DNA of 33,770 nt from a virus. Where the stretch lies: positions 1 through 33,770 of IMG/VR virus record IMGVR_UViG_3300025141_000397; one strand, 5' to 3'. This document shows positions 2,771 to 18,153 of the stretch, one piece after another (within the stretch, counting starts at the first letter, position 1; every line of letters begins with the position of its first letter). Both the position numbers and the translations under genes were made by a program. The notes under the pieces were generated by a model. The model was not told where the DNA came from and ran no database searches. It saw only the letters and a program-made list of their open reading frames with translations.

Positions 2771-4104
2771 TAACTACCCTGTAGACGTTGCAATAATCTA
2801 TTAGATTGTGGTTGGACTTGTTCTTGTCTTTCTTCTTCCCACTTTTTACGGTCTTCTTCAGAAGCGTCACTATTCATATAATCAAACCAGTCTCTAGGTG
2901 TTGCTAACCCTTTATCAAATTTCCAATTCCAGTAATTTATTTCCTGGTCCACGCTCATAGGGTAATCTGGTTCTAGGAAGTCTACGCGGTAGTCTTCTTT
3001 AATTCTTGCATTAGTTTTTGCTTCTATAATAGCTTTATCTATCTTAAAGCGTTGTTTTTCAAACGGTCGCCAAATGTCTTCTGTGGAAGCAGTCCTCTCA
3101 TCATAATTTTCGTACTCCATTATTTTAAGACTTTCTGCTGAAGGGGCATTTCCACGCGTGTCTGCAAATTTAATTCTAATATGATTGTTGTTTAATGTAG
3201 CTTCTACTAGGAATCTGGTAGCGTCAATAATATCAGTTAATGAGCCAGATGGCGCGGTAACGCCAAAGTTACTTTCCTGGGGCAAATATAATATTTTGTC
3301 TACACCGACTTCGATACGACTAGCATCATCTACACCGGTGATGTACTTGATTCCGATAGCACCAAAGCGTATGGCCAAGGAAAGTTCGGTGGCGGCTACG
3401 GAAACACTTAAATCAGCTCTGATTATATCATGCGCACCTTCACTCCACCAGTCACGAATTGGTTTATAGCGATGTGCAAATGTTAATGGAATAACACCGT
3501 ATGGATTACGATCCCCCTCATTTACACTTTTCTTTGTGCCATTTTGATCTACTAAATAATGTTGTCCTGGAATCCCTGGACGATCTTCTGTCCACACTGC
3601 GTGCCATGGTTTTTTTAATTTACTAGAACCATGGTTTTCAATAGCAAAGATTACCCCTACCGGAGATTTTTCACCAGGTAAGAAAATAGGTTCAAAATTT
3701 TGTATTAAATCATATTTTATCTTTTGTTCGCGTTCGGACCAACGACTACGCATGGCCATGGTACCTAATAAAAATGTCAACTGTTCAAGTTGCCTGCGTG
3801 ATGAATTCAAGTCAGATATATCTATAAAATCTAAATACTTTTTGTCAACCGACATTTTTGGTGGACGCTTATATGTCATCGATCTTACCTTACAAATTCT
3901 ACGGGTCAAATTCTGCGTAAAAATAGGTACTTGATTTAGTGATTCGCTGCCAAAGAACTTTTTAACGTATTGGTCTATATTGACTCCCTCGAAGAAGTCT
4001 AACATATATTCGCGTTCTTTTACTCGTTCACTTTCTATTGTATGCAGTGCGTCTTTTAATGAAGAAAGGACTGCGCCTTGCGATAAATCTGGGATTGTTA
4101 CCAT
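2770..4104 (-). CDS. Portal protein
   Basis: A 444-residue protein of typical portal length, directly after the large terminase gene and before the gpF-like gene. The N-terminus is charged and helical; the centre contains YLVDQNGTK, a NPYGVIPLTFAH segment and a long helix around ADLSVSVAATELSLAIRFG; the end is Gln/Arg-rich and flexible. In this family twelve copies form the vertex channel that the terminase docks on. The start ATG overlaps the terminase stop by 7 nt. Identification rests on neighbours plus these patterns. Confidence 0.9.
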   Translation of the reverse strand: MVTIPDLSQGAVLSSLKDALHTIESERVKEREYMLDFFEGVNIDQYVKKFFGSESLNQVPIFTQNLTRRICKVRSMTYKRPPKMSVDKKYLDFIDISDLNSSRRQLEQLTFLLGTMAMRSRWSEREQKIKYDLIQNFEPIFLPGEKSPVGVIFAIENHGSSKLKKPWHAVWTEDRPGIPGQHYLVDQNGTKKSVNEGDRNPYGVIPLTFAHRYKPIRDWWSEGAHDIIRADLSVSVAATELSLAIRFGAIGIKYITGVDDASRIEVGVDKILYLPQESNFGVTAPSGSLTDIIDATRFLVEATLNNNHIRIKFADTRGNAPSAESLKIMEYENYDERTASTEDIWRPFEKQRFKIDKAIIEAKTNARIKEDYRVDFLEPDYPMSVDQEINYWNWKFDKGLATPRDWFDYMNSDASEEDRKKWEEERQEQVQPQSNRLLQRLQGS

Positions 4105-12666: not shown

Positions 12667-13007
12667 CACTTCGCCCACTTTCCGTTTTTGACTATAGTGG
12701 CCATGATCCCGTAATTGCTTACATCCAAAAAGGCATCTTCCATTGGCTCACCTTCAACTGCATTTTCTCTGCGCTTCATTAATAAATTCTTTAATCTCTG
12801 GATCTTGTCATTCATACGGAACCATAATCCCGTTAATGACATCAATACTTCTTCTTCTGTTTCTAACTGTGTACCTACACTAATATTGCCAGATCCATAA
12901 TCATGTTGTTTATGACAAAATAATTCATATTGTTCTTTTTGTAGTCTTTTGAATTCCGAAGTCATCTCCGGCCATTCCTTTTCCATTTGTTTTATTATAT
13001 CACTCAT
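12666..13007 (-). CDS. Nmad1 / DUF1599 nucleotide-modification-associated protein
   Basis: A 113-residue protein from ATG 13007, which overlaps the upstream stop by 8 nt; an earlier ATG (13070) lies inside the upstream gene and is less likely. The pattern fits the Nmad1 (DUF1599) family: CHKQHDYGSGNI (31-42), LWFRMNDKIQRLKNL (61-75), then EDAFLDVSNYGIM (90-102) and a terminal GKW. The family was proposed from comparative genomics to take part in modified-nucleotide metabolism; no reaction has been shown to my knowledge. Its closeness to a cytosine methyltransferase fits that idea. Confidence 0.75.
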   Translation of the reverse strand: MSDIIKQMEKEWPEMTSEFKRLQKEQYELFCHKQHDYGSGNISVGTQLETEEEVLMSLTGLWFRMNDKIQRLKNLLMKRRENAVEGEPMEDAFLDVSNYGIMATIVKNGKWAK

Positions 13008-13383
13008 ATTCTGGAAACTCCTTAAATGCCCAAAACCATAAACGGCCTTTGGTTTGATTATTTTTTGCATTTCGTAAAGCTAGATTAAAGCAATCCATCT
13101 TATCATCGTAAGGAATAAAAGCAATGACATCTTCTGGTAAATAATAAGCTGCAACGCAATCTACTCTTCCAGTTCCAATGTGCTTTGTCATTCTAACTTC
13201 AACACTTGTGCTAGTTTTTAACTTGGTTATAGTCTTTACATTCACGCGCTTAAATGTATTGTGCTTTCTATGTTCCACAACCAAATCCACTCCATCATTG
13301 TCACATTGCGGTATATAAACATTATATCCCTGTCTATGCAATTCTTTGCGAACTGCCAGTTCACCTAAAGTCCCTATTCCCAT
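13000..13383 (-). CDS. PD-(D/E)XK-like nuclease or resolvase
   Basis: A 127-residue protein with TLGELAVRKELHRQGYNVY (Glu8), a CDNDGVDLVVE strand (Asp30, Asp33) and FKRVNVKTI (Lys50), the core order of small PD-(D/E)XK enzymes such as group I intron endonucleases and archaeal-type resolvases. The residue two before Lys50 is Asn, where Glu or Gln is usual, so activity is uncertain. A second conserved block (VAAYYLPEDVIAFIPYDD) follows. It sits between the methyltransferase locus and Nmad1. Confidence 0.7.
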   Translation of the reverse strand: MGIGTLGELAVRKELHRQGYNVYIPQCDNDGVDLVVEHRKHNTFKRVNVKTITKLKTSTSVEVRMTKHIGTGRVDCVAAYYLPEDVIAFIPYDDKMDCFNLALRNAKNNQTKGRLWFWAFKEFPEYE

Positions 13384-13408: not shown

Positions 13409-13507
13409 TTAATTATGTATCCTTTCTAATAAAATTCTTATTGCTCTTTCCGCAGTGTCTGGCACTACGCCATTCCCTAACAACCTTAATCGATCCACTC
13501 GGTTGGC
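13409..13507 (-). other. Out-of-frame C-terminal motif X of the cytosine methyltransferase
   Basis: This frame encodes ANRVDRLRLLGNGVVPDTA and a helix to a stop at 13409, the classic C-terminal motif IX/X of C5-cytosine methyltransferases (RVxRLRxLGNxVVP). It has no start of its own nearby and is in the same frame as the methyltransferase ORF that stops at 14183, 676 nt upstream. Between them the good coding frame is shifted by one. It would be translated only by frameshifting, or it is a remnant. Confidence 0.7.
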
Positions 13508-14727
13508 AGTTGCGTCCACCCCACTGGAAGACCCATCAGTTGTTCCACCCAATTGGGGTTTAACTTTTTTGACGACTTTTGGCTTTCCATGATCCCCACT
13601 GACTTGCTTAGTCCTGCTTGTTTGCTGTTTATTTCGCAATGAGGGGTTTTGTTTGCATCGTTTACTGCCGGAGTCCCCCACGACTCTTGGCTCTTCCCAC
13701 TCGTACTGCTTTTCTCCTGGTCTTGCTGGGTATTTGGTAAATGTACGATCTTGTCTAGATCTCTTTTTTGTCTCTCTTTTGATGTTCCCATCCCTCCTTT
13801 CCAATCTCTTGCTTTTGGTGTGGGCCAATTATGTACTTGCTCTCTTAAATTTGAGCATCCACCTTTTTTTGCTTTTTCACTTCGCTCTTCTGGCTTTCTA
13901 ACATCCGATCTTCCATCCATGGCTTGTGGTGTTGCCCAATTCTTTTCATTTTCTAAATCAATAGCTTCTCTTAATTGTATATTGTGCCACTTACCTTCTT
14001 TTATTTGTTTAGTTCTTTTTCCACCACTTGATTCAGCTAATGTAGGTGTGGGCCAATTCTTTTCTTCATGCGTTTCCACTGCATCTCTTAACTTTGCACC
14101 AAAGTATTGATCAGATTTATGTCGCTTTGATCGAAATCCTTTTTCACTCATTTCTGTTTCTATCCTACCGCCTTCCGCATCGCTATTCCTGGCGGTAGGC
14201 CATGATAAAGACTCTTTTTCGTTGATGGGGCGCACCAACTTCAACCGCGCTGAATATTCCCCACGATGTGATATAACCTCTTTCTTCCAAGTCTCCGAGG
14301 ACATACTTGAGTACCGATTCTCCGTCTGCGGTTTTGCTTGAGATGATTCCTTCGACATTTTCGAGAACAACATAAGTTGGTCTGCACTGTGAGATTCCTT
14401 CAGCGATGTATGGGTATAAATGTCTCGGATCATCTGTTGATTCTCGTCTTCCGGCAGCACTAAAGGGTTGGCACGGGAATCCGGCAGAGAGGATATCCAC
14501 TTTTCCAAGAAAGTATTTGAATGGGAAGGTTTTAAGATCCGTGTAAATAGGTGTTGGATGTATCCAACCCTCTTCAATCTTTGCTGCCAAGTTCGCGACT
14601 GCGAAGGCTTCGATCTCCACATAAGCGATTTCTCGCACATTTGGCCAAATGTTTCGGAGTCCCATTCCAATTCCTTCGTATCCTGTACAAAGGGAGAGGT
14701 GATTAATTGTTCTGTCAGTATCCACAC
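13486..14727 (-). CDS. WxTP-repeat protein in a second frame over the methyltransferase
   Basis: One uninterrupted 413-codon frame. Residues 1-181 lie over the methyltransferase gene in the +1 frame; residues 182-413 are unique. The unique part has W-x-T-P-type units at Trp176, 225, 264, 301 and 350, several preceded by LRDAV/LREAI-like helices, and ends LNPNWVEQLMGLPVGW (389-404). I recall this WPTP/LNPxWVExLMGxPxGW module as the C-terminal part of many phage cytosine methyltransferases. A possible GTG start (14727) overlaps the previous stop. It may be an independent protein or be joined to the methyltransferase by a +1 shift. Confidence 0.7.
   Translation of the reverse strand: MWILTEQLITSPFVQDTKELEWDSETFGQMCEKSLMWRSKPSQSRTWQQRLKRVGYIQHLFTRILKPSHSNTFLEKWISSLPDSRANPLVLPEDENQQMIRDIYTHTSLKESHSADQLMLFSKMSKESSQAKPQTENRYSSMSSETWKKEVISHRGEYSARLKLVRPINEKESLSWPTARNSDAEGGRIETEMSEKGFRSKRHKSDQYFGAKLRDAVETHEEKNWPTPTLAESSGGKRTKQIKEGKWHNIQLREAIDLENEKNWATPQAMDGRSDVRKPEERSEKAKKGGCSNLREQVHNWPTPKARDWKGGMGTSKERQKRDLDKIVHLPNTQQDQEKSSTSGKSQESWGTPAVNDANKTPHCEINSKQAGLSKSVGIMESQKSSKKLNPNWVEQLMGLPVGWTQLPTEWID
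14183..14725 (-). CDS. DNA (cytosine-5)-methyltransferase, catalytic domain
   Basis: A 180-residue catalytic domain: motif I LSLCTGYEGIG (SAM binding), motif II/III VEIEAFAVANL, motif IV AGFPCQPFSAAGRR with catalytic Cys85, motif VI VVLENVEG (Glu122-Asn123-Val124) and motif VIII QRKRVFIMA. It would methylate C5 of cytosine in phage DNA, for example to evade restriction. The frame stops right after motif VIII, so target-recognition and motif IX-X regions are missing here; motif X lies downstream at 13409-13507. Start GTG 14725 is 2 nt from an alternative GTG in the second frame. Confidence 0.9.
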   Translation of the reverse strand: MDTDRTINHLSLCTGYEGIGMGLRNIWPNVREIAYVEIEAFAVANLAAKIEEGWIHPTPIYTDLKTFPFKYFLGKVDILSAGFPCQPFSAAGRRESTDDPRHLYPYIAEGISQCRPTYVVLENVEGIISSKTADGESVLKYVLGDLEERGYITSWGIFSAVEVGAPHQRKRVFIMAYRQE

Positions 14728-14885
14728 TATAAATACTTATCTAAGTACTCATCTTCTGTAAATATATGGTAGCACAGAAGACAAAATGGTTCTTCTAGGT
14801 TTGTATATTCTCTTTGATCTTCTGGGTGATCGCAAGTTTCTTCTGGAATTAATTTTGTTCCAGGTTCTAATTCAGTTTCTGTCAT
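14727..14885 (-). CDS. Small acidic Cys-containing protein (52 aa)
   Basis: ATG at 14883-14885; the stop TAG shares its G with the GTG of the downstream locus. A 52-residue, Glu/Asp-rich protein with ETCDHPEDQ and CLLCYHIF, a C-x-H plus CxxC layout like a minimal zinc-binding unit. It is coupled to the membrane microprotein gene upstream, whose end it overlaps. Function unknown. Confidence 0.6.
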   Translation of the reverse strand: MTETELEPGTKLIPEETCDHPEDQREYTNLEEPFCLLCYHIFTEDEYLDKYL

Positions 14886-15074: not shown

Positions 15075-15308
15075 CTAAACAACCCCATTTTTTTCCGCGC
15101 AGTGAGGACATTCTTTTTCTGTTTTACCGTACCTTGGAAAGTTTCGGTAATAATATGCGACCAAATATTTACCTTCTTTACCCATTGCCCATACATAATC
15201 ACAAGTGTAGCATAAAAATAAAGACTCAATTTTGTCTCTTTGAATAACTTTTTGATAATTATTACCGCTAACACCTTCATTGAATCTATTCAGTATCCAT
15301 TCGATCAT
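15075..15308 (-). CDS. Zinc-ribbon protein (77 aa)
   Basis: From ATG 15308 (GGAGAG upstream) the 77-residue protein has CYTCDYVW and, about 35 residues later, CPHCAEKNG, the two CxxC knuckles of a zinc ribbon separated by an aromatic strand region (KYLVAYYYRNF). It overlaps the resolvase-like gene by 23 nt. A longer start at 15335 is possible but has no better RBS. The 71 nt after its stop contain no convincing gene. Confidence 0.65.
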   Translation of the reverse strand: MIEWILNRFNEGVSGNNYQKVIQRDKIESLFLCYTCDYVWAMGKEGKYLVAYYYRNFPRYGKTEKECPHCAEKNGVV

Positions 15309-15600
15309 TTTTTGTTCTCTCCATAAAGTCATCAAACTTCATTATTACATAACTTTCATCTCGGTCGGCTCGAAACATTACTATATCACAATTTCTTAAT
15401 TGCAACCATTTAGGCACCGCCTTCCGTCTTTTACATTGCACAAGCAAATCATCTGCTACAAGATCCACATCCGGAGGCTGTGATAAAGATCTTCCATCGC
15501 TACCCCATGCTCTCTGAACGTCTTTGTATCCATGCTCTTTGAACATTTCTACGCATTCACGTTCGTAGACGGTGCCTTTTCTTTTAGATTTAGATGCCAA
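15286..15600 (-). CDS. Holliday-junction-resolvase-like PD-(D/E)XK nuclease
   Basis: A 104-residue protein with the compact resolvase/VRR-type layout: basic N-terminus (SKSKRKGTVYERE, Glu13), WGSDGRS, then DVDLVADDLLVQCKRRK with Asp44/Asp46 and the Gln-x-Lys pair Gln55/Lys57. In this fold these acidic residues bind the metal. It probably resolves branched replication or recombination intermediates before packaging. A TTG start directly follows the stop of the SSB-like gene, implying coupling. Confidence 0.78.
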   Translation of the reverse strand: MASKSKRKGTVYERECVEMFKEHGYKDVQRAWGSDGRSLSQPPDVDLVADDLLVQCKRRKAVPKWLQLRNCDIVMFRADRDESYVIMKFDDFMERTKNDRMDTE

Positions 15601-17055: not shown

Positions 17056-18153
17056 ATGGCTAAGAAAACATATAAAGGTAAAGATAAATTTGGAGTTCCA
17101 AGATGGTTATTCGACTGGAAAGATTACTTTACTGGCGAGCGTCATCGTAAAACATACGCTATGACCGAACAAGAAGCGGAAGCAAAAAGACAAAAGCTAG
17201 AGAGCTTGGAGATGTGTCGGCATACGGGTATACCTGTAGATATAAATAACCCTAACAGTGTTTCAGTAGAATATGTATTTAACGCATATTTAAATGACTA
17301 TATAAAACTGTGTGATGCGAAAAAACGCAGTATAAAATCATTTAATAGACATAAACACGCATTAACCTTATTTTATAAAGTATTTCCTAATAAAACCTTA
17401 ATAAATAACCTATTAGTTAGAGTAATTGATGGTGATGTATGTAATCCGATGCAAAAGTTTAACGATCATTTTGCACATCATAGTCATTCGGGTATTAATG
17501 TAAATCTACAATCTATTATAGCCGCATTTAATTGGGCAAAAAGAAACAATATCATATCTTCAACCCCTACTGCGGTCAAGGAAAAAGTAGAAAAAAAGAA
17601 AGTACATATTCTAACTGACCAAGAAATTCAATCAATCTTACAAGCTGAAGTTGATAGTGAAATTAAAGATGTATTTATGTTATATCTAAATACAGGTGCT
17701 AGGAAAATAGAACTTCTGAAAGATAATTTTACTTGGGATGATATAGATTGGGAACGCAAGGAAGTTACTTTACTTCGTAAAAATAATGAAAGACATACAG
17801 TTGTAGTAAATGATATGGTATTAAATATCTTAGCTAAATATAAAGATAGATCACATCCAATATCTTGGAGTGTAAGTTGGATAGATAACTGTATCATTGA
17901 ATTAAGAAAGCAAAGTGGAGTATACTTTACTTGTCACGATATTCGTAGGTCTGCCGGTGCTTTATTAGTCCGCAGTGGTGTACGTCTAGCGAAAGTGTCC
18001 AAGTGGATGAACCATAAAGACATTAAGATAACGTATGATCATTACTATGATATTATAGATACGGAACGTGAAAATATTGCGAATAAACTTGAAGAAAACT
18101 GCTTAAATATGATGGTGTCAAATGAAGCAAGTAAAAATATGATTGCTAATTAA
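17056..18153 (+). CDS. int: Tyrosine integrase
   Basis: A 365-residue tyrosine recombinase. N-terminal arm-type domain (GKDKFGVPRWLFDWKDYFTG, residues 8-27), SAM-like core-binding domain (about 70-170) and catalytic domain with Arg216 (LNTGARKIELL), His294 and Arg297 (CHDIRRSAGALL), His320 (WMNHKDIKITY) and Tyr330. All catalytic residues are intact. It inserts phage DNA into the host chromosome, so the phage is temperate. AGGAG precedes the ATG. It ends 4 nt from the convergent late operon, leaving no room for attP at its 3' side. Confidence 0.95.
   Translation: MAKKTYKGKDKFGVPRWLFDWKDYFTGERHRKTYAMTEQEAEAKRQKLESLEMCRHTGIPVDINNPNSVSVEYVFNAYLNDYIKLCDAKKRSIKSFNRHKHALTLFYKVFPNKTLINNLLVRVIDGDVCNPMQKFNDHFAHHSHSGINVNLQSIIAAFNWAKRNNIISSTPTAVKEKVEKKKVHILTDQEIQSILQAEVDSEIKDVFMLYLNTGARKIELLKDNFTWDDIDWERKEVTLLRKNNERHTVVVNDMVLNILAKYKDRSHPISWSVSWIDNCIIELRKQSGVYFTCHDIRRSAGALLVRSGVRLAKVSKWMNHKDIKITYDHYYDIIDTERENIANKLEENCLNMMVSNEASKNMIAN

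Follow-up and report, generated by a model that had tools for sequence, protein, structure and literature searches.

The window analyzed here is the whole of IMG/VR virus record IMGVR_UViG_3300025141_000397 (33,770 bases). It encodes a terminase, a primase-helicase, an integrase and tail genes and is therefore probably a temperate tailed phage. The integrase (17056-18153, plus strand) is the chief plus-strand gene amid minus-strand genes, an arrangement that itself suggests a temperate phage. A methyltransferase locus on the minus strand contains the following features, where frame A is the frame of alphaN and frame B the frame of beta:

14727..14885, minus strand: upstream ORF of 52 aa, whose stop shares one base with the beta start
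14723..14729, minus strand: nested stop and starts, TAGTGTG, holding the upstream ORF stop, the beta GTG (14727) and the alphaN GTG (14725)
14183..14725, minus strand: alphaN, frame A, 180 aa, GTG start, C5-methyltransferase motifs I-VIII, matching PF00145 and phrog_363
13486..14727, minus strand: beta, frame B, 413 aa, GTG start, an open frame at +1 to alphaN, matching phrog_1008
14233..14298, minus strand: helix of beta, residues 144-165, within the overlap, from alignment and AlphaFold (pLDDT about 77-86)
13672..14202, minus strand: five W-x-T-P/A units of beta (W176, W225, W264, W301, W350), with constraint in frame B only
13829..14182, minus strand: dead spacer of frame A with 14 stops (TGA 7, TAA 4, TAG 3), where alpha is open in most relatives
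13513..13563, minus strand: motif IX of beta, LNPNWVEQLMGLPVGWT, residues 389-405
13409..13828, minus strand: alphaC, frame A reopened, up to 139 aa, start codon uncertain, with conserved YPARPG..EWEEPRVV..LGGTTDG and motif X
13460..13492, minus strand: motif X in frame A, RLRLLGNGVVP, containing the beta stop codon (13486-13488)

Directly after the methyltransferase, at 13000-13383 on the minus strand, lies a PD-(D/E)XK nuclease of 127 aa (PF11645, 1.6e-10), which could be a restriction partner of the methyltransferase or a resolvase. A PDDEXK_15/RusA-like resolvase is encoded close upstream (15286-15600, minus strand), so that the methyltransferase is flanked by two small PD-(D/E)XK nucleases. 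The upstream 52-aa ORF contains CDHPED...FCLLCYHIF and is a possible small zinc-binding protein.

Distribution of methyltransferase motifs between the frames

AlphaN matches PF00145 (Pfam DNA_methylase) over profile positions 2-164 of 324 (1.2e-32, 114.1 bits) and phrog_363 at 1.9e-44. Both PCQ, which contains the catalytic Cys85 (14471-14473), and ENV are found within it, as motifs I-VIII of PF00145 call for. The chain ends right after motif VIII, with about half of the PF00145 model still to come. An earlier sequence-only reading had described the 413-codon ORF (13486-14727, minus strand) lying at +1 to the methyltransferase ORF (14183-14725), and the ORF is present as described. What it overlooked is that the frame of the methyltransferase closes just past motif VIII and is open again at 13409-13828, where NRVDRLRLLGNGVVPDTAERAI, in the same frame as alphaN, reads as C5-methyltransferase motif X.

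The first 178 residues of beta overprint alphaN, and frame B is without a stop over the whole of alphaN. Within this part, residues 145-163 read ETWKKEVISHRGEYSARLK, and W147, V151 and R161 are invariant in an alignment of 33 homologues. The W-x-T-P region, the presumed target-recognition region, follows, and motif IX comes last: LNPNWVEQLMGLPVGW occupies residues 389-404, at the C-terminal end where motif IX is expected. These residues, like the five W-x-T-P/A units, had been picked out by the sequence-only reading and are all there. Among 118 relatives, motif IX lies 22 to 31 codons upstream of the frame-A motif X, and it is kept in all intact relatives.

Beta matches phrog_1008 at 3.8e-22 through residues 73-279, partly where frame B overprints alphaN, and PHROG 1008, a 'DNA methyltransferase' family, also matches the motif X piece. 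A joined A-B-A protein, consisting of frame A up to motif VIII, frame B in the middle and frame A at the end, matches PF00145 over positions 2-319 of 324 at 130.6 bits, compared with 2-164 at 114.1 bits for frame A alone. Motifs IX and X are found after the presumed recognition region, as in PF00145, with IX supplied by frame B and X by frame A. The position of motif IX, the longer PF00145 match of the joined protein and the PHROG 1008 match argue that beta is the methyltransferase's own missing part, between motifs VIII and X and including motif IX. The second frame had been taken for a module of its own beside a complete methyltransferase, a view that gives way here; the 'element before WPTP repeats' of the sequence-only reading corresponds to the homologous N-terminal region in PHROG 1008, the family matched by frame B residues 73-279. 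Beta is poorly modeled by AlphaFold (mean pLDDT of 53), the more confident regions being helix 144-165, the surroundings of residues 190-224 and motif IX, and a profile search with beta for solved structures found none.

In the window start region, TAGTGTGG, the stop of the 52-codon upstream ORF, the frame B start and the alpha start all overlap. The relatives typically show ATGTGGAT, with B starting from ATG and alpha from a GTG two bases later (97/124 loci). No Shine-Dalgarno match was found at the window's alphaN and beta starts, and translation of the two by coupling to the upstream ORF is therefore likely.

Openness and selection in the two frames

Searching IMG/VR with frame B gave 213 relatives. 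Frames A and B are in the same phase in all 80 B-selected loci that were kept, and neither has a stop over a stretch of about 240 to 530 codons, the window's close kin excepted. A second search used frame A alone, so that loci were not chosen by openness of B. Over motifs I-VIII, 74 of the 80 loci in this frame-A-selected sample are open in +1 and none of the 80 in +2.

Expectations were obtained by synonymous-codon shuffling within each alpha gene, which preserves the protein and its codon usage. Such shuffles predict 3.2 +1 stops per locus over motifs I-VIII, and for frame A of the window itself 0.8% of the shuffles are open in +1. Of 27 loci below 80% DNA identity, 24 are open in +1, against 0.41 predicted by the shuffles; no flanking ORF is open in +1 (0/413). 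The sequence-only reading had held that the absence of a +1 stop across the 543-nt methyltransferase gene was unlikely by chance, and had proposed following the second frame through homologues; on both counts the relatives bear it out. Similarity of the +1 translation against shuffles reaches a z of 59, which is not our main evidence because the +2 value is also raised (z 34), from shared ancestry and constraint by B.

The overlap is also present in named phages, mostly annotated for alpha only: C75C1, N15 (gp58), BcepC6B, ZCEC5, Gungnir39, ABMM1, Lacticaseibacillus phage R9.1 and Synechococcus phage Yong-M2-251. Between PCQ and motif IX, eight of the ten named phages lack a +1 stop, with shuffle probabilities of 0.001 to 0.18, so taken one by one these phages are weaker evidence of openness beyond chance. 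Bacterial genomes searched for the locus yielded just three weak matches. One of the three, on a Blastopirellula MAG contig (L173), is a degraded copy with stops and frame changes, a prophage remnant or viral contamination. Another locus (L141, 2499-3300) holds a shortened copy in which both frames are shifted, motif IX is lost and motif X is in frame B, possibly a deletion derivative.

Selection was measured as w, from substitutions pooled over 94 pairs and classed by what each does in either frame, under a simple model rather than a phylogenetic likelihood; the pairs share some ancestry and are non-independent. Over motifs I-VIII, wA is 0.26 and wB 0.51. Flanking genes analyzed by the same method give 0.19 in the true frame and 0.85 in the +1 shadow frame, and for this reason the baseline for wB is 0.85 rather than 1. 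In each 30-codon block of the overlap, from the first block on, wB lies between 0.37 and 0.73, always under 0.85. When close pairs were aligned by DNA instead of by B, motifs I-VIII gave wA 0.19 and wB 0.42. Purifying selection acts on both frames over motifs I-VIII. The suggestion in the sequence-only reading that both frames of the locus are under selection, and that per-frame rates in the overlap would reveal it, is thereby supported, with the second frame constrained throughout.

The alpha spacer and the proposed enzyme

Between motifs VIII and IX the balance of the frames is different: wA is 0.99 and 1.01, which is neutral, and wB is 0.45 and 0.18, which is constrained. This alpha middle is nevertheless stop-free in 49/49 loci, against 6.4 stops per locus expected from B-synonymous shuffles. 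Neutral but stop-free in alpha and constrained in B, the alpha middle of most relatives behaves as a spacer needing only read-through, and sequence recognition is more likely to reside in B than in the alpha middle.

The window and six relatives (L083, L084, L085, L086, L089 and L090) form one clade with support 100/96, in which this spacer has been lost. Clade members have 6-34 stops between motifs VIII and X; the 14 in the window compare with 15.9 expected from B alone, i.e., the random rate. Reassignment of a stop codon as a rescue of frame A is ruled out, as the dead spacer has all three stop codons. In tests based on six or seven loci, alphaN of the clade retains a wA of 0.22. AlphaC is conserved as well: the motif X tail beyond the beta stop has a pN/pS of 0.19. 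Inside the beta overlap alphaC gives wA 0.61, a fragile value because the last 50 codons of beta, in clade pairs alone, give wA about 1.05 and no A-frame constraint. In 6/7 clade loci a candidate alphaC start is preceded by a Shine-Dalgarno match at least as strong as -6.3 kcal/mol, compared with about 18% of such codons in the background; the window's candidate start is a weak TTG. In the nearest relative, L083, the sequence downstream of position 3632 includes TSPPYWNQRDYQ, a motif characteristic of N4/N6 amino-methyltransferases, and a second methyltransferase may therefore follow the locus there.

The locus probably encodes one phage cytosine-5 methyltransferase whose parts are translated individually from two frames that overlap and then assemble, with alphaC as a third piece in the window clade. 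Ribosomes would initiate at a pair of nested start codons, one per frame. Frame A would yield alphaN, the cofactor-binding and catalytic half with motifs I-VIII, and frame B would yield beta, the VIII-X region with motif IX and the W-x-T-P units taken as target recognition. In most relatives alpha would continue through the neutral stop-free spacer to motif X; in the window clade, where the spacer has decayed, motif X would be made as alphaC, overlapping the end of beta. AlphaN, beta and alphaC would then come together non-covalently, as in M.EcoHK31I. The order of steps would be a full dual-frame overlap, a neutral open alpha spacer, and finally spacer loss with the splitting of alpha. Translation of each piece, the role of beta as recognition subunit, assembly and activity are what we infer from these comparisons. 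For the window, an enzyme in three pieces, namely alphaN, beta and alphaC, is the likeliest product, and we put the chances at about even that a three-polypeptide methyltransferase is drawn from two frames of this 1.3-kb stretch with motif X as its own piece of at most 139 residues.

Programmed frameshifting could instead produce one chain, by a +1 shift from alphaN into beta around motif VIII followed by a -1 shift from beta into motif X, with free beta as a by-product. The match of the joined A-B-A protein along the length of PF00145 fits such a chain, as does the end of alphaN just past motif VIII. We consider it unlikely, however: most relatives have alpha from I to X unbroken in one frame and can do without a shift; beta has a start of its own and is under constraint from the very first codons, neither of which frameshifting at motif VIII would call for; and no canonical slippery heptamer was seen by eye before alphaC. 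It is quite improbable that alpha is simply decaying in the window clade and beta alone is still used, for another purpose. Spacer stops at the random rate, and a beta that alone is intact at full length, would suit decay, but neither the wA of 0.22 in clade alphaN nor the pN/pS of 0.19 in motif X past the beta stop is decay-like. That the second frame is open through composition or codon usage and is functionless in the overlap has very little probability; codon position effects by themselves do bring w in the +1 shadow frame of ordinary genes to 0.85, but the observed wB of 0.51 is far below this, and shuffles that preserve codon usage predict 0.41 open loci where 24 are found. Two assembly or sequencing indels in an ordinary single-frame methyltransferase would also produce the A-B-A order, an explanation refuted by the same phase in 80/80 beta-selected loci and in the isolates C75C1, N15, ZCEC5 and Bloom.

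A methyltransferase divided between two overlapping frames has consequences beyond the window. The same-strand overlap is very long and well supported, with a beta of more than 400 codons enclosing alphaN and both frames constrained, and it is common in phages, where annotation mostly shows one gene. If the reading holds, many of the phage genes labeled 'DNA methyltransferase', N15 gp58 included, would hide an unannotated subunit, and recoding or cloning the annotated frame alone would abolish activity. Target recognition would be placed in the hidden frame, which is directly testable. The relatives form a natural experiment in how an enzyme coded in two overlapping frames sheds a redundant part.

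Comparison with known systems

The closest parallel is M.EcoHK31I, studied by Lee, Kam and Shaw in 1995, whose small chain is reportedly read from another frame within the gene of the large chain. The phage locus resembles this enzyme in having motif IX in a chain apart from I-VIII and X (118 relatives). Fragment complementation is established for C5-methyltransferases (PMC3404938). M.EcoHK31I (YGGCCR) carries motifs I-VIII and X in its large subunit and IX in its small one, and its predicted recognition domain is placed in the large chain (PMC3404938); here, in contrast, the VIII-X region is constrained in the beta frame only. Also unlike M.EcoHK31I, the window clade is without an uninterrupted chain carrying I-VIII and X, although most other relatives have one, and the window's beta starts at the start codon of alpha and exceeds alphaN in size.

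M.AquI (CYCGRG) is naturally split after motif VIII, and both IX and X belong to its small subunit, beta (PMC3404938). The split after motif VIII into separate chains is shared with the phage locus, but there the two motifs are parted, with beta carrying IX and frame A carrying X, partly past the beta stop. In mycobacteriophage Elephantoon (genes 85/84; L166, 978-2004), I-VIII are in one frame and the W/L-P-T-P units, IX and X are in +1; this overlapping pair, nearer to AquI in its arrangement, may be another end point of the same split.

Two isolates place the window's arrangement among annotated phages. In Paenibacillus phage Bloom, gp56 and gp57 are overlapping CDS in PHROG 363 and PHROG 1008, the two 'DNA methyltransferase' families that the window's frames match, and both are annotated; the Bloom alpha is intact and its annotated beta starts 67 codons inside alpha, whereas the window's alpha is broken. 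Phage C75C1 (OQ984151), the closest named isolate, has a beta frame open gene-wide with 35% identity to the window's beta; its alpha, unlike the window's, is intact (480 aa) and is the sole annotated frame. Set against these systems, several features look new: the spread of the overlap across phages, its full extent beginning at the start codon, a spacer that is neutral yet open, and the splitting of alpha in one clade. The literature searched, mostly outside subscription journals, contained no account of a phage-wide overlap or of the other three features.
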